A stretch of 64,000 nt of DNA from Pseudoxanthomonas composti (GTDB lineage: Bacteria > Pseudomonadota > Gammaproteobacteria > Xanthomonadales > Xanthomonadaceae): contig NZ_SAWZ01000004.1 of NCBI RefSeq assembly GCF_004122095.1, positions 124,001-188,000 of the forward strand, read 5' to 3'. The stretch's first letter is position 1. Each line of letters starts with the position of its first letter. The translations under genes were made by a program, and so were the position numbers. Positions 4,505 through 51,600 of this stretch are shown piece after piece. Below the pieces are notes generated by a model that did not search any database, had not been told where the DNA came from, and worked only from the letters and a program-made list of their open reading frames with translations.

Positions 4505-5045
4505 GGTGGACAAGCTTCGCGTTGTCCACCCTACCGTAGGGTGGATGACGCTTTTCTCATCCACCCTACGGTAGGGTGGATGACGCTTTTCTCATCCACC
4601 GCCGCCGCAGCGCCTCGGAACAGCGCAATCTGGATTGGCGTGTTTTGTCGCTCTGGAAGGATGTCGGCTGCGGGCGATGCCGGGGTGGACAAGCTTCGCG
4701 TTGTCCACCCTATCGTAGGGTGGATGACGCTTTTCTCATCCACCACCGCCGCAGCGCCTCGGAACAGCGCAATCTGGATTGGTGTGCTTTGTCGCTCTGG
4801 AAGGATGTCGGCTGCGGGCGATGCCGGGGTGGACAAGCTTCGCGTTGTCCACCCTACGGTAGGGTGGATGACGCTTTTCTCATCTACCATCGCCGCGGGC
4901 TTCAGAACAGCGCAATCTGGATTGGCGTGTTTTGTCGCTCTGGAAGGATGTCGGCCGCGGGCGATGCCGGGGTGGACAAGCTTCGCGTTGTCCACCCTAC
5001 GGTAGGGTGGATGACGCTTTCTCATCCACCATCGCCGCGGCGCTT
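4505..5045. repeat. 144-bp tandem array built from a GTAGGGTGGA palindrome plus copied recD 3' end
   Basis: The core GTAGGGTGGATGACGC starts at 4536, 4571, 4715, 4859 and 5002, giving intervals of 144, 144 and 143 bp after the first pair. Each unit pairs a small palindromic element (GTGGACAAGC...GTTGTCCACC, then GTAGGGTGGA...CATCCACC) with a block of about 60 bp resembling the recD 3' end at about 5045-5110, including the codons for STPIQxALF. Minus-strand frames through the array are open but are repeat artefacts. No gene is supported between 4374 and 5044. Confidence 0.8.
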
Positions 5046-7144
5046 CAGAACAGCGCACCCTGGATCGGCGTGCTGTCTTGCGCTGGAGGGGTTTCGACTG
5101 AGGGCGATGACGGCGCCGGCTCTGCCCCGCCCAAGCGCCAGGCAAGCCCGGACATGCGCACTGCATGACGGCTCAGCGCCTCGCGCAGCACCTGGGCGCT
5201 GCCGGCCACGTGCAGGCGGCTGCGGGCGCGGGTGATGGCGGTGTAGACCAGCTCGCGCGAGAGCACGCGGCTGTCGTTGCGCGGCAGCTGAAGCCAGACC
5301 TCGTCGAACTCGCTGCCCTGGGCCTTGTGCACGGTCATGGCGAAGGCGCTTTCGTGCGCGGGCAAGGCGGCCGGATGGAAGGCGCGGACCTGGCCGGGCC
5401 CATCGCCCGGGAACCAGGCCATCAGGGGGCCGCTGGCGAGCGCTCTCGAAGCGGATGACGCTTCGCTTTGCACCGAGGAATGACTTGCTACGCTGCGCCC
5501 CGGAGAGGGACTTACCTCGCTTCGCCCTGAAAAAGGACTTGCTTCGCTTCGCCCCACGAAGGGACTCGCTTCGCTTCGAAAACAAATGCCGATGTCGCCG
5601 TTGAACAGGCGGTGGCGGTAGCTGTTCTCGGTGATCAGCAGCAGGCGGCCGTGGAAGTAGGTGGGCGTCGGGCCGGTGCGGCGGCCCGAGAGCTGTTCCT
5701 CGACGCGGGCGTTGAGACCGCGCGCACCCTGGGGGCCTTCGCGCACGGCGGTGAGCAGACGCAGGCGCTGGGCCAGGCCCAAGGCGGTGGCCGGGTCAGG
5801 GGCATCGCCCAGGCTGCGCCAGTGCGCCAGCAGGGCCTCGCCCCGGGCCTGGAAGGGGTCCAGCACGTCTTCGTGGAAGTCCACCCCGCGCAGGCTGCCG
5901 CCGCGCAGCAGCGCCAGGGCGGTGTCGGCATCGCCCCGGCGCACGGCCTCGGCCAGCGGGGCCAGGTCGAAGTCGGCGTCCTGGCGATAGCCGCGCAACA
6001 GGCGCACGCGGTGGCCGCGCAGGCCGGTGGCGGCCGCATCGACGGGCGTGCCAGGACCGAGCAGCGGCGCCAGCGCGTCGGCATCCTCCGCGCGCAGGGC
6101 ATCGCCGGGCCCCGCCGCGCCGAGGATGGCCGCCAGCACGTCGCCGGCTTCCACCGAGGGCAGCTGGTCGGCATCGCCCAGCAGGATGAGCTGGGTGCCA
6201 TCAGCCACCGCCTCGACCAGCTTGCACATCAACGGCAGGTCGACCATGGAGGCCTCGTCCACCACCAGCACGTCCAGCGGCAGCGGGTTGTCGGCGTGGT
6301 GGCGAAACGTGGGGCTGTCGGGGATGACGCCGAGCAGGCGATGCACCGTGCTGGCGGTCTCCGGCAGCGCGGTGCACAGGGCCGGGTCCACGCCACTTGC
6401 GAGGATGGCCGCCACGGCGCGGCGCAGGCTTTCGGCCATGCGCTCGGCGGCGCGGCCGGTGGGCGCGGCCAGGGCGATGCGCGGCGGCGGTGCGCCCATC
6501 GCGATGGCCTGGGCGATGCGCAGCACCAGCAGGCGGGTGATGGTGGTGGTCTTGCCAGTGCCGGGGCCGCCGGTGACCAGCAGCAGCGCGCGGCGCAGCG
6601 CCAGCGCGGCGGCGCGCGCCTGGCGGTCCTCGGTGATGCCCGGTGCCGAGCCAGGGTCCGGGGTTGCCTCCGCCAGGGCACTCTGCGGAAACAGCGCGCG
6701 AAACACACCGCGCACGGGCTCCAGGTCCTGGTGATGCGGTGGCTGGGCGGCGATGCGCTGCAGGCCAGACGCCAACCGCGATTCGTACTCGCGGTAGCGC
6801 CGCAGGTACAGCAGCCCTGTTGCCTGGCCGGCAGGTTCGAAGGCCAACGGTGCATCGGCGGCCGAGGGCGCCAGTGGGTCGTTGGGCTGGGCCACCCACG
6901 GCGAGGCGCGCAGCTGCGCCACCCAGGCCTCGGCCTGGGGCCAGGGCAGGTCCGCGTCCACCAGCAGACGCGGACGCGCCGGGTCGAAGCCGGCGTGCCC
7001 ATGGGCCACCGCCAGCGAGGCCAGCGCGGCGGCCACCTGCACCGCCTCCGACGTCTCGGGGCGCAGGCGACGCAGGCTTTGCGCGAAGGCGTGATCCAGG
7101 GTGCGCAGGTGGCCCTTGGCGTAGAGCTCGTCGAGCAGGCTCAT
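5045..7144 (-). CDS. recD: Exodeoxyribonuclease V (RecBCD) subunit alpha, with a 9-residue repeat insert
   Basis: RecD is the 5'-3' helicase motor of RecBCD. The product is 699 residues against about 608 in E. coli. It shows Walker A (TGGPGTGKTTT, about 191-201), Walker B (VVDEASMVDL) and the late helicase motif TVHKAQGSEFDEVWL. The start at 7144 overlaps the recB stop (ATGA). Between the conserved NGDIGI and MAWFPG strands lies an insert of about 45 residues (about 522-566) with five 9-residue repeats like RSEASPFVG. It comes from a 27-bp tandem repeat and is absent from E. coli RecD. The frame is kept and conserved motifs on both sides are intact, so the protein is probably functional. Confidence 0.95.
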   Translation of the reverse strand: MSLLDELYAKGHLRTLDHAFAQSLRRLRPETSEAVQVAAALASLAVAHGHAGFDPARPRLLVDADLPWPQAEAWVAQLRASPWVAQPNDPLAPSAADAPLAFEPAGQATGLLYLRRYREYESRLASGLQRIAAQPPHHQDLEPVRGVFRALFPQSALAEATPDPGSAPGITEDRQARAAALALRRALLLVTGGPGTGKTTTITRLLVLRIAQAIAMGAPPPRIALAAPTGRAAERMAESLRRAVAAILASGVDPALCTALPETASTVHRLLGVIPDSPTFRHHADNPLPLDVLVVDEASMVDLPLMCKLVEAVADGTQLILLGDADQLPSVEAGDVLAAILGAAGPGDALRAEDADALAPLLGPGTPVDAAATGLRGHRVRLLRGYRQDADFDLAPLAEAVRRGDADTALALLRGGSLRGVDFHEDVLDPFQARGEALLAHWRSLGDAPDPATALGLAQRLRLLTAVREGPQGARGLNARVEEQLSGRRTGPTPTYFHGRLLLITENSYRHRLFNGDIGICFRSEASPFVGRSEASPFSGRSEVSPSPGRSVASHSSVQSEASSASRALASGPLMAWFPGDGPGQVRAFHPAALPAHESAFAMTVHKAQGSEFDEVWLQLPRNDSRVLSRELVYTAITRARSRLHVAGSAQVLREALSRHAVRMSGLAWRLGGAEPAPSSPSVETPPAQDSTPIQGALF
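5447..5581 (-). repeat. Five 27-bp tandem repeats inside recD
   Basis: Units start at 5447, 5474, 5501, 5528 and 5555, each 27 bp, with the core CTTCGCTTCGCCC degrading toward 5447. Because 27 is a multiple of three, they encode 9-residue repeats without shifting the frame. Unit number could vary by slippage. Confidence 0.85.
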
Positions 7145-10100
7145 GCGGCAGCCTCCGTGGCCCCGGCGAACAGTGCATCCAGGGCGTGGACCAGCCCCGG
7201 CGCGAAACGGTGCGCGTACACCCCGGGCGAATCGGCGCGGGTCGCGTCCAGGCCGCGGCAGAACAGATAGCGGATGCCGCCGAAGTCGCGCGCGTAGTCG
7301 TACGCCTGGCCCAGGCGGAAGCGCAGCCAGCGATGCAAGGCCAGGGTGTAGATCAGTGCCTGCAGGTCGTACTCGCTGTGCGCCATGGCCGCCTGCAGCG
7401 TGGCCGCGTCGTAGGTCGGCAGGCGGTTGGACTTGTAGTCCAGCACGTACCAGCGGCCCTCGTGCGTGTAGGTCAGGTCGATCAAGCCGGTCATCAGCCC
7501 TTCCAGCGTGCGCCGCAGGCCGAAGCCGCGACGCTCGCGCACCACCCCATGCGCGTGCAGCAGGGCCAGCAGCGCATCGATGTCGGTGGGCTGCAGGGCG
7601 AACTGGAACTCGATCTCCGCACGGCGCGCCTGCTCCGGCACCTGGCACAGGCGCACGCCCTCGGGCAGGACCACGGTGAGCGTCTGTCCGATCAGCGCGG
7701 TGAGGACCTGCACGCCTTCGTCCAGTTCGCCCGCGGCATAGCCGCCGCCCTTCAGCGCGGTCTCGATGATGGCGCGCTCACTGGCCGGTGCGGCATCGCC
7801 GGGGCGCCAGTCGCGCCAGGCGGCGAAGTCGCCGTCTTCCAGCGCCTGGTGCAGCACCACGCCGAAGCGGTTGCCGGCAAAGCGCGGGTCGAAGGCTTCG
7901 CCTGTGGGCGTGGCTGCGGGCGCTTCCGGTTCGTCGCTGCCGCCGGCCGCGGCCACGGTGGCGCGGGTGGACAGGTCGGCGCTGCCGCTGTCGGCATTGG
8001 CCAGCTGGGTGAAGCTGTAGACCCACCAGTCCGGCGCGATCTGCCGCTGCACGTGCCGCGCAGCGGGTGCCTGGCCTTCGCGCTGCGGCGGCAGCCACGG
8101 CGAGTCGGCCGGCAGCGTACGGTCGCGCACGATGCCGGCGGTTTCGGGCAGACCCTCGACCATCGGCCACAGCGCGCCCTGCCTGGCGTTGTAGAAATCG
8201 CCGGTGGCGATCCACAACGCGTGCTCGGCGCGGGTCAGGCCCACGTACAGCAGGCGCGCGTCCTCGGCGCGGTCGGCCAGTTGCCTGCGCTCGCAGGCGG
8301 TCTTCCAGCCGGAGGTGTCGGCCTGCAGGTTCCAGTGCAGCCAGCGCCGGCCGTCGTCGTCGGCCACCACGCAGCTGCGCTCGGGTCTGCGCGCGGTGCC
8401 GCCGATGCCGACGAAGGGCAGGAACACCAGCGGATACTCCAGGCCCTTGGACTTGTGCAGGGTGACGATCTGCACGCGGCGGGCATCGGACTCCAGCCGC
8501 AGCAGCTGGGTTTCGTCGCTGGCATCGGCCTGGGCGATGCGCTGGCCCAGCCAGTCGACCAGGCCCTGCAGGCCCAGCGCGCGCGTGTCGGCTTCCTGCA
8601 GCAGCTCGCCCAGTTGCAGGTAGTTGGTCAGCCGGCGCTCGCCATCGAGCAGGCCCAGCAGCCGCTCGGCGTTGTCGGCGCACAGGTCCGAGACCAATGC
8701 CAGCGGCCCGCCGCGCTGGCAGCGCTCGCGCCAGGCCAGGGCCCTGCCCTGCCATTGCGCGTGGGCCGCGCCCTCGGTGTCCAGCGCAGCGATGCCGCCC
8801 GCATCCACGCCCAGCAGCACGGTGGCCAGGGCGGCGCGCAGGCGGGCATCGTCGGCGCTGTGCAGCAGGGCCAGCAGCAAGGTGAGCAGCTCGCGCGCCT
8901 CGGCGGTGGCGAACAGGCTCTGCTGGCCGGCAGCCACCGCGGCGATGCCGACCTCGGCCAGGGCGCGCTGGATGCGCGTGGCTTCCTTGTGGGTCCGCAC
9001 CAGCACGGCGATATCGCCCGGCTGCACCGGCTTGTCGCCGAGCAGGGCATCGCCGGTGCGCGCATCGCTCAGCACGCCGTGGATGGCGGCCACACAGGCC
9101 TGGGTGGCCAGCTCGCGCGAGCGCTGCGCGCTGTGCGGCTTGCGCTTGCCCTTCTCGTCCGCCGGCGGCTCCGGGGCCTGCCACAGCGTCAGCGCCGGGG
9201 CATCGGTGCCCGCGCGTTGGTAGTCGGCATCCACGCGCTGGGTGCCGGGCAGGACCGGGTGGAAGCGGATCCTGTCATCGACGAAGGCGGCATCGCCGGC
9301 CTGTGCGTACAGCGCCTGGATCGCCGCCAGCACCGCCGGGCGCGAGCGGAAGTTGCGGTCCAGCGGCGGTGCGGCCTGCGCGTGTCGCGCCGCCTGCAGG
9401 TAGGTCTGCACGTCGCCGCCGCGAAAGCCGTAGATCGCCTGCTTGGGGTCGCCGATGAGGAACAGCGCCGGGGCCAACGCCGCGGCCCGTGTTTCCTCCG
9501 AGTCGCCGAACACGGTGCGGAAGATGTCCCATTGGCGCGCGTCGGTGTCCTGGAACTCGTCCACCAGCGCGATGGCGTACTGCGCGCGCAGCCGCTGCAC
9601 CAGCGCCGCCGCGTGCGGGCCGCGCAAGGCCTGGGCCACGCCGTCGATCAGATCGTCGTAGGTCTGCACGCGCAGCTGCTGCTTGCGCCGGGCCAACCGC
9701 ACGCGCGCCTCGTCGCGGATGCGGTGCAGCAGGCGCACGCGTTCGCGCTCCTGCGCCTGGGACAGGTCCTGGCTCGCAGCCAGGTAAGAGGAAATCAGCG
9801 CGCACAGTGGCGAGGCGGGCGTCTGCTTGCCCTTGTTGGTCTTCGCTTCCAGGGCGTCGGACGACAGCAGCGGCAACTTGGGGTGCGCGGGCGCGCCCCA
9901 GTCGCCTGCGGCGCACCACTGCGCCAGGTCGCGCCACAGGTCCTGGATCCATTCGGCCTTGTAGCTTTGGCCGTTGAGCTGCTTGTTCTCCACCGCGTCC
10001 AGCAGCGCGGCGCGAAAGCTGTCGCCATGTGCGGCCAAGCCCTCGGCCAGGGCCTGGCCTGCGCGGTGCAGCTCGGCTTCGATGCGGTCTGTACGCTCTG

Positions 10101-10986
10101 CTTCGGTGGGGCGCGGCGGCAGCAGGTCGGGCTGACGGATCAGTTCGCCCAGATCCCGCGCCAGCGCCTCCGGGCCGCGCGGCCACAGCGACATCAGCAG
10201 GGGCGCCCACTGCGCATCGGCCGCGGTGCTGCGCCACAGGTCGGCCGCCAGTTGCTCGCGCAGGTCGCGGTCGTTGGCCAGCAGCTCGGGCGGGGCGAAG
10301 GTCTGCCCGCTTTCCAGCGCATGCTCGCGCAGCACCCGCGCGCAAAACCCGTGGATGGTGAAGATGGCGGCCAGGTCGATCTCATCGGCTGCCTGCTGCA
10401 GCCGCTGCCGGAGCTGGTGGGGCGTTTCCGCGCCGGAGGCCAGGTGCGCGGCGATGATGGCGCGGCTGAGCTGGGCATCGGGTGCGTCATGACGCGAAGA
10501 CTGTTGGCCCTGCCCCGCCGACGGCGGCGGGGCCTGTGACAGCGGCTCCTGCGAGAGCTGCGCTTGGAAGCGATTCCCGTGTGGGAGCCGATGCATCGGC
10601 GAAGGGCTTTCCCCTCGGACCTGATGGTGGAACAGCCCGGCTGCATCAACTTGATCTCCCAAGTCTCCAACATCGCCTGCAAGCCGCTTTGCCGATGAAT
10701 CGGCTCCCACAGGTGTTCCCGCTGCCGCTGTCTCCGCCGCCATCCCCATGGCCTCGGGCACCAGCGAGGCGGCAAGCGCCAGGCGCTCGCGGATGCGCTT
10801 GCGCAGTTCCTGGGTGGCCGCCTCGGTGAAGGTGACAGCCAGGATCTGGCCGATGCGCAGGCGTTGCTCGACCACCAGCCGGGTTACCAGGGTGGCCAGG
10901 GTGAAGGTCTTGCCGGTGCCGGCGCTGGCCTCGATCAGGTGGGTGCCGGTCAGCGGCAGGGTGAGGAAGGGATCGACCGGCGTCAT
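7141..10986 (-). CDS. recB: Exodeoxyribonuclease V (RecBCD) subunit beta, with an in-frame palindromic insert
   Basis: RecB is the 3'-5' helicase-nuclease of RecBCD, acting at double-strand ends. The product has 1281 residues against about 1180 in E. coli. The N-terminus has Walker A (EASAGTGKTFT, about 19-29). UvrD-type motifs follow: VDEFQDTDARQWDIF, GDPKQAIYGFRGGD and VTLHKSKGLEYPLVFLP. The C-terminal nuclease retains GVVLHQALEDGDF, GLIDLTYT and the catalytic LDYKSNRL. Residues about 92-136, early in the helicase domain, come from a REP-type palindrome and resemble nothing in normal RecB. The gene lies between recC and recD with ATGA overlaps on both sides. Confidence 0.96.
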   Translation of the reverse strand: MTPVDPFLTLPLTGTHLIEASAGTGKTFTLATLVTRLVVEQRLRIGQILAVTFTEAATQELRKRIRERLALAASLVPEAMGMAAETAAAGTPVGADSSAKRLAGDVGDLGDQVDAAGLFHHQVRGESPSPMHRLPHGNRFQAQLSQEPLSQAPPPSAGQGQQSSRHDAPDAQLSRAIIAAHLASGAETPHQLRQRLQQAADEIDLAAIFTIHGFCARVLREHALESGQTFAPPELLANDRDLREQLAADLWRSTAADAQWAPLLMSLWPRGPEALARDLGELIRQPDLLPPRPTEAERTDRIEAELHRAGQALAEGLAAHGDSFRAALLDAVENKQLNGQSYKAEWIQDLWRDLAQWCAAGDWGAPAHPKLPLLSSDALEAKTNKGKQTPASPLCALISSYLAASQDLSQAQERERVRLLHRIRDEARVRLARRKQQLRVQTYDDLIDGVAQALRGPHAAALVQRLRAQYAIALVDEFQDTDARQWDIFRTVFGDSEETRAAALAPALFLIGDPKQAIYGFRGGDVQTYLQAARHAQAAPPLDRNFRSRPAVLAAIQALYAQAGDAAFVDDRIRFHPVLPGTQRVDADYQRAGTDAPALTLWQAPEPPADEKGKRKPHSAQRSRELATQACVAAIHGVLSDARTGDALLGDKPVQPGDIAVLVRTHKEATRIQRALAEVGIAAVAAGQQSLFATAEARELLTLLLALLHSADDARLRAALATVLLGVDAGGIAALDTEGAAHAQWQGRALAWRERCQRGGPLALVSDLCADNAERLLGLLDGERRLTNYLQLGELLQEADTRALGLQGLVDWLGQRIAQADASDETQLLRLESDARRVQIVTLHKSKGLEYPLVFLPFVGIGGTARRPERSCVVADDDGRRWLHWNLQADTSGWKTACERRQLADRAEDARLLYVGLTRAEHALWIATGDFYNARQGALWPMVEGLPETAGIVRDRTLPADSPWLPPQREGQAPAARHVQRQIAPDWWVYSFTQLANADSGSADLSTRATVAAAGGSDEPEAPAATPTGEAFDPRFAGNRFGVVLHQALEDGDFAAWRDWRPGDAAPASERAIIETALKGGGYAAGELDEGVQVLTALIGQTLTVVLPEGVRLCQVPEQARRAEIEFQFALQPTDIDALLALLHAHGVVRERRGFGLRRTLEGLMTGLIDLTYTHEGRWYVLDYKSNRLPTYDAATLQAAMAHSEYDLQALIYTLALHRWLRFRLGQAYDYARDFGGIRYLFCRGLDATRADSPGVYAHRFAPGLVHALDALFAGATEAAA
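10580..10711. repeat. REP-type palindromic element inside recB
   Basis: The left arm (10580-10610) begins TGTGGGAGCCGATGCATCGG and the right arm (10681-10711) ends GATGAATCGGCTCCCACA. They are near-perfect inverted copies around about 70 bp. The same arms occur in intergenic elements at 24595 and 63213. The span is exactly 132 bp (44 codons), so the recB frame is preserved. Confidence 0.88.
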
Positions 10987-13900
10987 GCCTCGGCCTCGGT
11001 GTCGGCCTCAACGAAGAACGCGTGCGCATCGCCAAGGCCGGGGTGGATCACACCATGTTCGACCGCGTGGAAGATGGCCAGGCTGGTCTCGGCGAAGCGG
11101 CGCAGCAGCGCCGCATCGGCAAAGGGGTCGCACCCGCGCAGCGCCAGCTGGTAGGCCTCGCCATTGCCTTCGCCCCAGGTGTGGTCGCTGCCGCGCCAGC
11201 GGGCCGCGGCCGCCTTGACGGCCTTGTGCGGGTCCTCGGCGCTGAAGAACTCCCAGCCGCTGTACGGGCCGAACGGCAACGGCGCCTGCAGGCCCTCGGC
11301 GCGCAGGGACAGCAGGCGCCGCAACGCGGCCCTGGCCGAGGCCGGATCGATGGGCGCGCGCTCGAACGGGCCGACGCCGGCCTGGGCCTCATGGAAGCGC
11401 ACCAGCGGCAGGTCCAGCCCGGCGGCGCTGGCCACCAGCCAGTCCAGGCCCTGGCGGATCGCGGCTGGGCCGTTCATCGCGCCCAGTCGCACGTGGGCCA
11501 GGCCCTGGTCGTAGAGGCCCTCCAGACGGCCATGCAGGCGCAGGCCGTCCAGGTCGATTTCCACCCGCTGCGTGCCGCGTTCGGCCTGGCCGCGCCACTG
11601 GTCGAACGCCAGCGCATACGGCCGCAATTGCGCGACCAGCGCGGCGAGCTGGCGATGGCCCAGCGGGCCGGAGGGCAACAGCGCACGGGCGCGCAGCTTG
11701 TCGTACAGGTCCTGCTCGCGCCCCTGCAGCAGTGCCTCGAACACCTGCTGTTGCAGCAGCGCCTTCTGCAGGCCGCGACCCGGCGCCAGCAGCGGCTCCA
11801 CGTCCTCGCCCAGATCGCTGGCATCGGCCAGGCGCAGGTCCAGGCGCTGGCGCAGGAACTGCTCGGCCGGCGCGCTGAAAAAGCGCCGCAGCGCATCGAG
11901 GGAAAGCGCGTCCTCCTCGACGGTGCGGGCCGGCAGCGGCGCCGTCACCCACGGCGCCAGCGGCGCCCGCGTCCCGCCGATGCGCACCGAAGCCGGCTGC
12001 CACTGCGTGCGATAACTGAAGCGGCGCGGGTCGCCTTCGGCGCCGAAGGCGGCCGGCGCGAACGGCTGCAGCGCGTGGTGCACGGTCAGCGCCTTGGCCG
12101 CGGCGGCGGCATCGGCATGGTGGGCGGCCGCCTCGCCGATCAGCTCGGTCACCAGCACCGAGGGTTCGCGCACGCTGCCATCGCGCGCGTCGGCACCGAG
12201 GTAGCTGACGTAGAACACGTCCTGCGCCGAGGCGAACAGCTGCAGGAACAGGAAGCGGTCGTCCTCGCGGGTGGAACGGTCGCCGTAACGGCGCTTGTGG
12301 GTCCCCAGCTCGGCGGTGAGCTGGTTCAGGCCCGCGGCCGGGTCGCGTCGCGGAAAGTCGCCATCGTTCATGCCCAGCAGGCAGATCACGCGGAACGGCA
12401 GCAGGCGCATGGGCACCATGCGGCCCACGCTCAGGCCACCGGTCAGCAGCGGGGCGCGCGTGTCGGCCTCGGCCAGCACGCTGGCGAAATGCGTGCGCAC
12501 CACCTCGGCCGGCACGGCGGCCTGGAAGCCGGCGCGCTCGGCCTCGCGGGCGAAGTCGTCGACCAGCTTGCGCAGGCGATCCAGCGCGCGCTGCGTGGCC
12601 GCGGCGGCGGGGGTTTCCGGCAGCAGCGCATCGAGCAGGGCCAACAGGCGCTCGCGCCACTGCGCGGGAGTCAGCGCCTGGTCCAGCCGGCGCTGGCTGC
12701 CGGCCAGCACGTGCAGCAGGCGGATCAGCGCGTCCAGCGCCTCCAGCGCACCGCCTTCCAGCGCATCGAAGGGGGCGACACCGGCGATGTCCTCGCTGCT
12801 GCCGCTGGCGTGGCCCAGCAGCAGGCGGTCCAGCGCGAAGGCCCAGGTGTAGGCGTCGTCGTGCGGGGCGCCATGCTGGGCGCGATGGGCAGCATCCAGC
12901 CCCCAGCGCGCGCCGGCGGCCTGCAGCCAGCCGTGCAGGCGCTCGAAGGCCGCCGCATCCAGCCCGGCGGCCTCCGCCAGCGGCGGACTGGCCAGCAGGT
13001 CCAGGATCTCGTTGAGGCCGAAACGCGAGACCGGCAGGTTCAACAGCCGCACGAACACCTCGGCCAGCGGCTCGCCTGCCAGCGGGCTGGTATCGGCCAG
13101 CGCATAGGGAATGCGCGAGGGAAAACCGGGGTCAGAGTGCAGTTTCCCCAGGCTCGTGGGCACACCTGTGGCAATGGAGGGGAAACTGCACTCTGACCCC
13201 GGTTTTCCCGCTGACCCCGGTTTTGCCCCCGGTTTGTCGGCGCCGAACACCGCTTCCAGATAGGGGATGTAAGGGTCGATGTCCGGCGCCAGCACCGCGA
13301 TCTGCCGCGGCTGCAGCGGCGGGTCGAAGCGCGGATCTTCCAGCAGGGCGCGCAGCTGGTCGTGCAGCACCTGCAGCTCACGCAGGCGGGTATGGCAGGC
13401 ATGCACCTGCAGGCTGGGGTCGGTGCGGTCCAGCGCGGCCAGCGGCGCAGGCACGGGCGGGCGCCTGCGGTGGAACAGATCGCTCTGCAGCCGCTTGAGC
13501 AGGCTGTCGCCCAGCCCGCCCTGGCGCAGTGGGCGTTGGCCCGACCCCAGCGGGTCGGCATAGACGTCGATCTCCGCGCTGGGGTGCGCCACCTCGTAGC
13601 TGCCCAGCATCGCCATGAAGTCGCGCCCGGCCGCGCCCCAGGCCTGCAGCAGGCGGTTGTCGCCGGCATCGAACAGGCTCTCGTCGACCAGGTCATCGGC
13701 GCGCGCGCGACGGCGCGGGCCCAGGGTCTGCAGATCGCCCCAATAGCCCTGCGCCGGGGTGGGCAGGTAGAAGTGCAACGTGCCCACCCGCGCCTGGGTG
13801 GCCAGCACCCGCAGCACGTCGGGCGAGACATTGAGCGTGGCGAAGGCGAACACGCGCCTGGGCAAGCCCTGCGGCAGCGCGTCTGCCTGCCCGGAGAAGC

Positions 13901-14462
13901 GATCCAGGTAGGCCTGGATGCGGCGGGCGCGGTACGCGCGGCCGGTCGCCAGATGGCGCCACAGCACCGCCTGCGGATCGTTCGGCGCCGCGCCGGCTTC
14001 CCAGCGCAGCAGCCAGTCGCGGCGCCAGGCCTGGTACTTCTCGAACACGCCGGCCAGCTCGCCAGCCAGCGCCCAGGGCTTGAGCGCATCCTCATCCTGC
14101 AGGTAGGTGCGCACCGCAGCCAGCGCCGGGTCGGACAGCACGGCCGGGTCGGTCAGGGCGGCGTACAGATGCCAACGCAGGCTGGCCGCATCCAGCTCAT
14201 CCTGTGCCGGCCCCAGGTTCGCCTCCAGCGCGCGGGCGACGAACTCGCCGGGGGTGAGGAACTCCAGGTTGGCGGCCACCCCATGCTCGGCCGCCAGCGT
14301 GGCCTGCAGCCAGCGGCGCATGGCCACCTGCGGGATCAGCACCACCTCCGGTGTCAGGATCGACTGCCCCGGCACCGGCTGGCGCAGCTCATGGGCCAGC
14401 AGCCCGGCCAGCAGTTCCAGCGCATTGGAGGGGTAAAGACGGAAATCAGGCGCTGGCGGCAT
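10983..14462 (-). CDS. recC: Exodeoxyribonuclease V (RecBCD) subunit gamma, with an in-frame inverted-repeat insert
   Basis: RecC holds the complex together and recognises Chi. The 1159-residue product (E. coli about 1122) begins MPPAPDFRLYPSNALELLAG and has RecC landmarks such as IPQVAMRRWLQATLAAEHGV, ICLLGMNDGDFPRRDPA and the C-terminal GWEFFSAEDPHKAVKAAAARWRG. About 40 residues near 408-448 interrupt the conserved run PYLEAVFGAD...RIPYALADTSPLAGEPLAEV and derive from a perfect 31-bp inverted repeat. The start at 14462 is chosen because upstream codons lack RecC similarity; the ribosome site is weak. It is the first gene of the recCBD operon, and its stop overlaps the recB start. Confidence 0.95.
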   Translation of the reverse strand: MPPAPDFRLYPSNALELLAGLLAHELRQPVPGQSILTPEVVLIPQVAMRRWLQATLAAEHGVAANLEFLTPGEFVARALEANLGPAQDELDAASLRWHLYAALTDPAVLSDPALAAVRTYLQDEDALKPWALAGELAGVFEKYQAWRRDWLLRWEAGAAPNDPQAVLWRHLATGRAYRARRIQAYLDRFSGQADALPQGLPRRVFAFATLNVSPDVLRVLATQARVGTLHFYLPTPAQGYWGDLQTLGPRRRARADDLVDESLFDAGDNRLLQAWGAAGRDFMAMLGSYEVAHPSAEIDVYADPLGSGQRPLRQGGLGDSLLKRLQSDLFHRRRPPVPAPLAALDRTDPSLQVHACHTRLRELQVLHDQLRALLEDPRFDPPLQPRQIAVLAPDIDPYIPYLEAVFGADKPGAKPGSAGKPGSECSFPSIATGVPTSLGKLHSDPGFPSRIPYALADTSPLAGEPLAEVFVRLLNLPVSRFGLNEILDLLASPPLAEAAGLDAAAFERLHGWLQAAGARWGLDAAHRAQHGAPHDDAYTWAFALDRLLLGHASGSSEDIAGVAPFDALEGGALEALDALIRLLHVLAGSQRRLDQALTPAQWRERLLALLDALLPETPAAAATQRALDRLRKLVDDFAREAERAGFQAAVPAEVVRTHFASVLAEADTRAPLLTGGLSVGRMVPMRLLPFRVICLLGMNDGDFPRRDPAAGLNQLTAELGTHKRRYGDRSTREDDRFLFLQLFASAQDVFYVSYLGADARDGSVREPSVLVTELIGEAAAHHADAAAAAKALTVHHALQPFAPAAFGAEGDPRRFSYRTQWQPASVRIGGTRAPLAPWVTAPLPARTVEEDALSLDALRRFFSAPAEQFLRQRLDLRLADASDLGEDVEPLLAPGRGLQKALLQQQVFEALLQGREQDLYDKLRARALLPSGPLGHRQLAALVAQLRPYALAFDQWRGQAERGTQRVEIDLDGLRLHGRLEGLYDQGLAHVRLGAMNGPAAIRQGLDWLVASAAGLDLPLVRFHEAQAGVGPFERAPIDPASARAALRRLLSLRAEGLQAPLPFGPYSGWEFFSAEDPHKAVKAAAARWRGSDHTWGEGNGEAYQLALRGCDPFADAALLRRFAETSLAIFHAVEHGVIHPGLGDAHAFFVEADTEAEA
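13119..13209. repeat. Perfect 31-bp inverted repeat inside recC
   Basis: Arms 13119-13149 and 13179-13209 are exact reverse complements, starting GGGAAAACCGGGGTCAGAGT, with a 29-bp loop. Partial copies of the arm (CTGACCCCGGTTTT) follow at about 13211-13235. The GGGGTCAGAGTGCAGTTTCC core resembles dispersed repeats known from many proteobacterial genomes. The recC frame remains open through it. Confidence 0.9.
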
Positions 14463-14702
14463 GCGACCATCTTGCCGCAGGCGGCGCTCACCGCGTGAGA
14501 CTCGGGCAGGCGGCCACGATGACGGAGTCGCGTCCAGACGAGACAATGGCGCCGGTCTGAACCGCATCGTTTCAACGGCAGCCACCACAATGGCGCCGTA
14601 TCGCGCGACAATACTGCACCTGCGAGTACGGTTTTATTCAGGCGCCAGCGCCGAAGCTACCGCGTTGATGTTTCGTTAACGACTTTCCGACACCTGGTCG
14701 AC

Positions 14703-18829: not shown

Positions 18830-18832
18830 GTA

Positions 18833-19115
18833 CATAGGGTGGATGACGCGCTTCCATCCACCATCGCCGCGATACGAACCGGCAGGGTGTAAAGGCGCGC
18901 CAGGCTCAGCCGCAGCGGGCGCCCTGATGGACAAACTTCGCGTTGTCCACCCACGTAGGGTGGATGACGCTTTTTTCATCCACCATCGCCGAGAAACAAA
19001 CCGGCAGGGTGTAAAGGCGTGCCAGGCTCAGCCGCAGCGGACGCCTCGGTGGACAAGCTTCGCGTTGTCCACCCTACGTAGGGTGGATGACGCTTTTTCA
19101 TCCACCATCACCGGG
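18833..19115. repeat. GTAGGGTGGA repeat array, about 122-bp unit (left of gpx)
   Basis: Two full units plus a partial unit are seen, with core starts near 18834, 18955 and 19078. Each unit has GTGGACAAGCTTCGCGTTGTCC, then GTAGGGTGGATGACGC, then CATCCACCATCGCCG, then a spacer containing GGCAGGGTGTAAAGGCG. The spacer differs from the recD-associated array at 4505 but matches the array at 19826. No gene lies between 18784 and 19137. Confidence 0.85.
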
Positions 19116-19825: not shown

Positions 19826-20185
19826 GGTGGACAAGCTTCGCCCTACGTAGGGTGGATGGCGCTTTCTCATCCACCATCGCCGAGAAACGAACAGTCAGGG
19901 TGTAAGGGGTGTCATGCTCAGCCACAGCGGCCGCGCTGGTGGGCAAGCTTCGCGTTGTCCGCCCTACGTAGGGGGATGGCGCCCTTCTATCCACCATCGC
20001 CGAGAAACGAACAGGCGGGGTGTGAAGGCGTGCCAGGCTCAGCCGTAGCGGACGCCTTGGTGGACAAGCTTCGCGTTGTCCACCCTACGTTGGGAAGGCG
20101 CGCTTCCATCACCGCCGCGCGAAGACGAACGACATGGACAAGCCGTAGGGTGGATGCCGCTCTTCATCCACCATCGCCGCAAGAC
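19826..20185. repeat. GTAGGGTGGA repeat array, about 122-bp unit (right of gpx)
   Basis: About three degenerate units share the spacer of the array at 18833 (GAGAAACGAACAGG, GGTGTAAGGGG, CAGGCTCAGCC). Cores are at about 19847, 19967, 20088 and 20150, with decay such as loss of bases in GTAGGGGGATGG. The 19684-20313 gap contains this array and nothing else recognisable apart from about 130 bp of unique sequence at each end. Confidence 0.82.
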
Positions 20186-51138: not shown

Positions 51139-51600
51139 TCTGGTGGACAAGCTCCGCGTTGTCCACCCTACGCCGAGTAGGGTGGATGACGCTCCTCCAT
51201 CCACCACCGCAGCGAACGGACCGGCGCGCGACGCCTCATCCTCCATCGGGCGCCCCACCTCGGCGGACAAGCTTCGCGTTGTCCTTCCCACGCCGACCGT
51301 AGGGTGGATGGCGCTCCTCCATCCACCACCGCAGCGAACGGACCGGCGCGCGACGGCTCATCCTCCATCGTGCGCCCCACCTCGGCGGACAAGCTTCGCG
51401 TTGTCCGCCCTACGCCGACCGTAGGGTGGATGACGCTCCTCCATCCACCACCGCAGCGAACGGACCGGCGCGCGACGCCTCATCCTCCATCGGGCGCCCC
51501 ACCTCTGCGGACAAGCTTCGCGTTGTCCGCCCTACGCCGACCGTCGCCCCACGCCGACCGTAGGGTGGATGACGCCCCTCCATCCACCACCGCCGCAAAC
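51139..51600. repeat. GTAGGGTGGA repeat array, 122-bp unit, upstream of the acylase gene
   Basis: Cores start at 51177, 51299, 51421 and 51560; the first two intervals are exactly 122 bp and the third 139 bp because of a 17-bp extra segment. The spacer (ACCGCAGCGAACGGACCGGC, then GACGCCTCATCCTCCATCGG) is unlike the spacers at 4505 or 18833, so each array has its own spacer with a shared palindromic core. Open frames through it are artefacts. No gene is seen between 51025 and 51894. Confidence 0.85.

Follow-up and report, generated by a model that had tools for sequence, protein, structure and literature searches.

Results

Repeats within the three recBCD genes

The window considered here is a 64-kb stretch of contig C19 of a 4.33-Mb Xanthomonadaceae genome (G000) and carries the genes of the three RecBCD subunits on its minus strand, each recognized by the corresponding NCBIfam equivalog model: the recC ORF (gamma subunit, 10983..14588, start codon unsettled) with 1010.9 bits against a curated cut-off of 582.9, recB (beta subunit, 7141..10986) with 709.9 against 696.05, and recD (alpha subunit, 5045..about 7144, likely start MSLLDELYAK) with 545 against 310.15. 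The closest named relative in the recB search was Luteimonas terrae, with a RecB identity of 77% in the best segment.

All three frames run open through a repeat, and the genes are otherwise intact. Within recB, inverted-repeat search and folding revealed an inverted pair of REP units (GTGGGAGCCGATKCATCGGC) at 10580..10711, 132 bp overall, with 25-nt arms (10580-10604 and 10687-10711) that are 92% complementary and an RNA fold z of -5.58. The same procedures found in recC a perfect 31-nt inverted repeat of the GGGGTCAGAGTGCAGTTT family at 13119..13209 (arms 13119-13149 and 13179-13209, 100% complementary, fold z -10.32). The recD repeat, detected by tandem-repeat search at 5460..5578, is an array with a period of 27 bp and predicted SEASPFxGR-type units that forms no stable fold (z -0.24). 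These features had been proposed in an earlier note on this DNA, and the palindromes of recB and recC are indeed there as described; the five 27-bp repeats attributed to recD stand in number and period, but the units are imperfect (4.4 copies, 71% matches). The further claims that the repeats belong to three unrelated classes and lie in frame between conserved blocks hold as well, the latter on the evidence of the open frames and the comparison with relatives, and the presence of three different repeats inside the recB, recC and recD frames is confirmed. The gain in length is less uniform than the 40-50 residues per subunit that had been announced: relative to L. terrae, RecB has 83 extra residues, of which the REP pair accounts for 44, RecC 35 and RecD 45.

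Families of the inserted sequences

The recB units GTGGGAGCCGATTCATCGGC and GTGGGAGCCGATGCATCGGC have a GT(A/G)G head and, after it, a palindromic unit, the arrangement of a REP doublet or REPIN, and like such doublets the insert has dispersed, mainly extragenic copies. Searching the genome with the REP unit GTGGGAGCCGATNCATCGGC at ≤3 mismatches gave 69 sites, 36 of them exact, against 3 for the reversed-pattern control, and the looser unit GTGGGAGCNGNNNNNNCNGC gave 205 matches against 5. The recB element is a member of a REP family with about 200 copies in the genome. Many of these copies share an extension like GAAGGGGCTTTCCC, and among 100 listed of the 205 sites the GGCTTCAGCC dialect is commoner than that of the recB arms.

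The recC-type unit GGGGTCAGAGTGCARTTTCC occurs at a minimum of 26 genome sites (control 0), a lower bound since the pattern overlooks variants such as a copy in hrpA described below. The only Y1_Tnp (PF01797) match of the genome has inverted copies of this repeat on both sides: at locus L082, GGGGTCAGAGT lies at 1149 (+) and 1959 (-) and brackets the match at 1501-1824, so that the recC insert belongs to a repeat flanking a transposase gene in the manner of RAYT-type systems. GTGGGAGC is absent beside this match, so the genome yielded no transposase cognate to the recB-type REP. Among 30 RAYT loci examined, one per genome, from about 100 matches listed, six had inverted copies of GTGGGAGC flanking the RAYT match on either side, and all six came from relatives of the same genus outside the nearest clade.

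The recD array behaves differently. It has neither dispersed copies nor a stable palindrome and is not a REP; a known mobile family was likewise rejected, with no convincing further copy in its own genome, none outside recD in 40 genomes at ≤1 mismatch and no match in a plasmid collection, where the recC insert had none either. With the same strict pattern, 7 of the 40 genomes had the unit, at their recD loci, in a search that returned 9 true matches against 5 for the reversed control, so that diverged copies may have escaped. The number of units varies between relatives, from about five here to four in G017 and three in G004, as in a minisatellite. One of the seven genomes, G007, has a lone recD-type 27-bp unit in reverse orientation and at a different position of recD (L087:8660-8700).

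The 3′ end of recD is itself overlapped by a second tandem array (4560..5113, period 144 bp), whose units end like the recD 3′ end (TPIQIALF) joined to a GTAGGGTGGA palindrome; one unit retains a stop at the same place. From its sequence this array appears to combine an amplified tail of recD with a repeat. Further arrays of about 122 bp with a GTAGGGTGGATG- or CATCCACC-type palindrome lie in the window at 18831-19113, 19839-20094 and 51145-51544.

The same positions in relatives

We compared 86 RecB, 86 RecC and 84 RecD sequences. The 80 loci of the recB search supplied 21 and then 14 loci to two comparisons, the more distant ones being left out, and 35 genomes of the same family were taken in on a strong recC match, the others having none at that cut-off. 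L005 and L009 were set aside as apparent duplicates of G025 and G016, G006 has no recB match, and L015 and L117 are without recD and hence outside the trees. Minority stretches of at least 12 residues cluster at a limited number of RecBCD positions, and some of them are not repeats; the extra stretch after RecC residues 1000-1002 in four sequences, for example, looks native. The three inserts studied here are missing from most of the relatives compared. The recB and recC inserts thereby resemble Rickettsia palindromic elements (RPE), lying in frame in a conserved gene and being missing in most homologues.

Some relatives are filled at the same spots. After RecB residue 81, 17 of the 86 sequences have a stretch of at least 12 residues, 16 of them with a VGA-type REP peptide; both REP arms are present in 13 of the 17, one arm in three (G177, G216 and G137) and none in G253. 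Four close relatives, as well as Xanthomonas, have REP pairs of differing dialects at this site. The arms of the 13 two-arm sequences differ within a pair at an average of 1.8 of 20 bases when the best pair is taken (1.9 for the last pair), whereas arms of different sequences are 4.9 of 20 bases apart on average; X. cannabis is an exception, its two arms having 6 mismatches in 20 bases. The dialect of the recB arms of G011 is exactly that of 21 of 42 listed sites of that genome (100 in all). The close likeness within pairs, together with this match in G011, suggests that REPs have re-entered the same place or that an old pair has been rewritten from the genomic pool. The recB of G011 (L086) contains the REP pair twice, with conserved recB sequence duplicated in between, all in frame.

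After RecC residue 455 only two sequences have a stretch, our genome and G010, both with the GGGGTCAGAGT repeat. After RecD residue 535 there are nine (our genome, G017, G004 and six Xanthomonas-type species), most of them built of related units of nine residues. G007 has no insert at any of these three sites of RecB, RecC and RecD. Other strings occupy RecD after residue 169 (20 sequences, including 13 residues in our genome), 265 (6) and 379 (10); those of the GARRAGEG and RHPREGGDP types we take to be translations of dispersed bacterial repeats. On the E. coli proteins, the RecC site falls between residues 428 and 434, the RecD site between 503 and 511, and the RecB site within the unaligned stretch 80-109.

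The RecD C-terminus (window 5045-5070) ends in or near Q-x-x-L-F/W in 35 of the 84 sequences. Seven others have Q-x-x-L-F or Q-x-L-x-L-F at position 169 and three at position 379, never alongside the C-terminal string, and 39 have no string of this type. The string resembles the sliding-clamp-binding motif. RecC, too, has a similar string, QSDLF, which stands at a conserved position in 71 of the 86 sequences, and the putative clamp-like motif of RecD is for that reason only a lead.

Coding repeats outside recBCD

We surveyed about 30% of the genome for coding palindromes, with genes called by codon-usage score and not by annotation. In 488.6 kb, mostly chosen for containing a repeat, there are 111 REP-type clusters (site C23:95466 and a few edge or non-palindromic matches were left out of the set); 27 are spanned by an open frame and four score as coding, namely recB, recC and two chance look-alikes. 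Strong inverted repeats number 72 in 500 kb that include the window, three of them scoring as inside genes (recB, recC and metH), and 48 in 800 kb of previously unread stretches, with a single one, in hrpA, scoring as inside a gene. Such low fractions indicate that coding palindromes are rare, and recBC holds two of the four found in about 1.3 Mb, but the window had been chosen for them, and neither metH nor hrpA is a recombination gene. Three codon shuffles of 292 coding ORFs (351 kb) each gave no inverted repeat of comparable strength, against six in the unshuffled sequences. That most long genes of this genome are equally loaded is not the case either, the 800 kb with its single repeat inside a gene containing 78 coding-scored ORFs of at least 700 aa.

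The metH repeat (L324:3134-3254, on contig C12) is an in-frame palindrome with 40-nt arms and a predicted GPGTGDPGT...PGSPVPGPRS stretch, and hrpA (L358:12662-12760, contig C21) contains an in-frame pair of the recC-type repeat. One reading frame is common to the inserts of recC, G010 recC and hrpA, with predicted KPGSE..F (KPGSES... in hrpA) and DSDPGF peptides. Two other genes contain tandem arrays: an ORF of 2449 aa in which one stretch is CheA-like, and another of 595 aa that includes a CheW domain. In relatives, a loop of Mfd after residue 432 of our protein contains inserts in 10 of 30 genomes, ours not being among them, nine of which are repeat-type by eye; there is one further 15-residue stretch elsewhere in Mfd. 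PolA of the same genomes has no repeat-type insert and only one 14-residue stretch, in G253. For comparison, the RecB site is filled in 13, RecD 535 in 7 and RecC 455 in 2 of these 30 genomes, a hand-picked set in which insert carriers are over-represented and the Mfd of G013 is partial. The notion of RecBCD as a special target is thus not borne out, and uniqueness of such repeats to RecBCD can be rejected on metH and hrpA in our genome, mfd in relatives and the arrays in the two CheA/CheW-type ORFs. Nor did anything in the data speak directly for the repair-linked insertion that the earlier note had considered as a cause.

Discussion

That repeats recur at the same spots in some relatives speaks for tolerant positions at which mobile or expanding DNA is caught, and against a new system. 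We consider it probable that the repeats survive at permissive positions, places in long proteins at which they are tolerated. RecB, RecC and RecD would have been entered at such positions, presumably in exposed loops, by short mobile or expandable repeats, which would have been kept since they preserve the frame and cause little damage. In recB the insert would be a REP doublet, one of the non-autonomous elements that RAYT transposases mobilize; in recC it would be a unit pair of the repeat that flanks the only RAYT-type transposase gene of the genome; and in recD it would be a locally expanded 27-bp minisatellite, probably already present in the common ancestor with Xanthomonas. Repeats driven by transposase or slippage would arise throughout the genome, with selection clearing most coding insertions so that the survivors would be concentrated at a handful of sites in long multidomain proteins, some of which are filled in several related species. 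Several points count against this explanation: no cognate transposase was found for the recB element, the recB arms belong to the rarer of two dialects among the listed sites, the recD array is no known mobile element and lacks a donor copy outside recD in the 40 genomes searched with the strict pattern, and the two recB arms of X. cannabis differ widely. A diagnostic insertion junction was not established for any of the inserts.

A variant of this explanation dispenses with repeated insertion. The recB and recD inserts could stem from a single gain in a common ancestor with Xanthomonas, followed by repeated loss, while exchange with genomic REPs would have rewritten the REP arms. On the tree of the joined proteins, our clade is indeed the sister of Xanthomonas and two neighbours (FastTree 0.992; IQ-TREE SH-aLRT 100), the two groups share the reading phase of the recB REPs, and the recD unit was seen at recD loci only in the 40 genomes searched. 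This confinement makes it likelier, in the case of recD, that an ancestral array was shared, or that recD segments were exchanged, than that the repeats were captured independently. However, RecB on its own does not recover the sister pairing, and with RecD a third group comes to stand between our clade and Xanthomonas; the order within our clade is weak even on the joined tree (20.5 at one node). There, a single gain would require 7 losses of the recB insert and 6 of the recD insert against 5 and 2 parsimony changes, the corresponding figures for recC being 4 losses and 2 changes. We regard the single gain as a serious contender, while leaning somewhat towards its contrary.

It might also be asked whether the inserts are selected, either for an altered RecBCD activity (e.g. 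a mutator or hyper-recombination state) or as new binding segments, with repair genes being preferred. A selected effect on RecBCD activity has been proposed before and is possible; the authors of PMC3733652 found it difficult to regard intragenic REPs in repair genes as fortuitous, and PMC4224334 describes in-frame palindromic inserts in Wolbachia addA, addB and priA. The share of recBC among the coding palindromes and the insert-bearing loop of the repair gene mfd in relatives fit this idea. But metH and hrpA are struck as well, the repair gene polA is free of repeat-type inserts in the 30 genomes, and the sequence, length and presence of the inserts vary among close relatives, so we find selection of the inserts unlikely and probable neutrality the better description. 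Still more doubtful is the idea that the RecBCD positions are long-lived capture sites for various repeat families, turning over with the REP dialects and sometimes domesticated as interaction segments, the repeat positions and C-terminal tail of RecD then being places where the Q-x-x-L-F string would shift between lineages. Perfect inverted repeats and tandem arrays are difficult for short reads, and an error of assembly or annotation might be invoked, but the frames are open and independent genomes of other species have inserts at the same positions, which makes such an error hardly credible.

In-frame palindromes in repair genes are known in several phyla without a clear cause. With survival at permissive positions as our preferred reading, the interest of the recBCD operon is that it offers a natural series, in which the same positions occur with and without inserts of several families on a tree, and which lets neutral tolerance be weighed against a selected change of a well-studied enzyme.

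Several known systems are related to these inserts. RAYTs and Xanthomonas REPs have been described (PMC2817692), and in RAYT/REP and TIR-flanked tyrosine transposase systems, as in the recC-type repeat, a transposase gene lies between inverted copies of a dispersed repeat (PMC3733652 and PMC2817692); the recB-type REP differs in that its transposase was not found in the genome that carries it. The RPE reviewed in PMC10969869 and the WPE-like elements of Wolbachia (PMC4224334) are likewise palindromes in frame in unrelated genes. They belong to other sequence families and hosts, and here one family flanks a RAYT-type transposase gene and most of the examined copies are extragenic. A further precedent is that of the intragenic GTAG-type REPs (PMC3733652, BMC Genomics 2013), many of which lie in repair genes. 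The presence of REPs inside recBCD is already known from that article, which names recBCD and reports REPs at about the same site in the recB of X. campestris and X. oryzae. Its main text does not contain the words recC and recD; the lists of genes stand in Figure 7B and Additional file 3. A genome with repeats in every one of its recBCD genes was not described in the mainly open-access literature searched, but such a case may be in print. The likeness lies in REPs, often dimers, placed in frame in genes, and the difference is that here all three genes of the operon are concerned, with three classes of repeat and with the recB site filled in a second clade.
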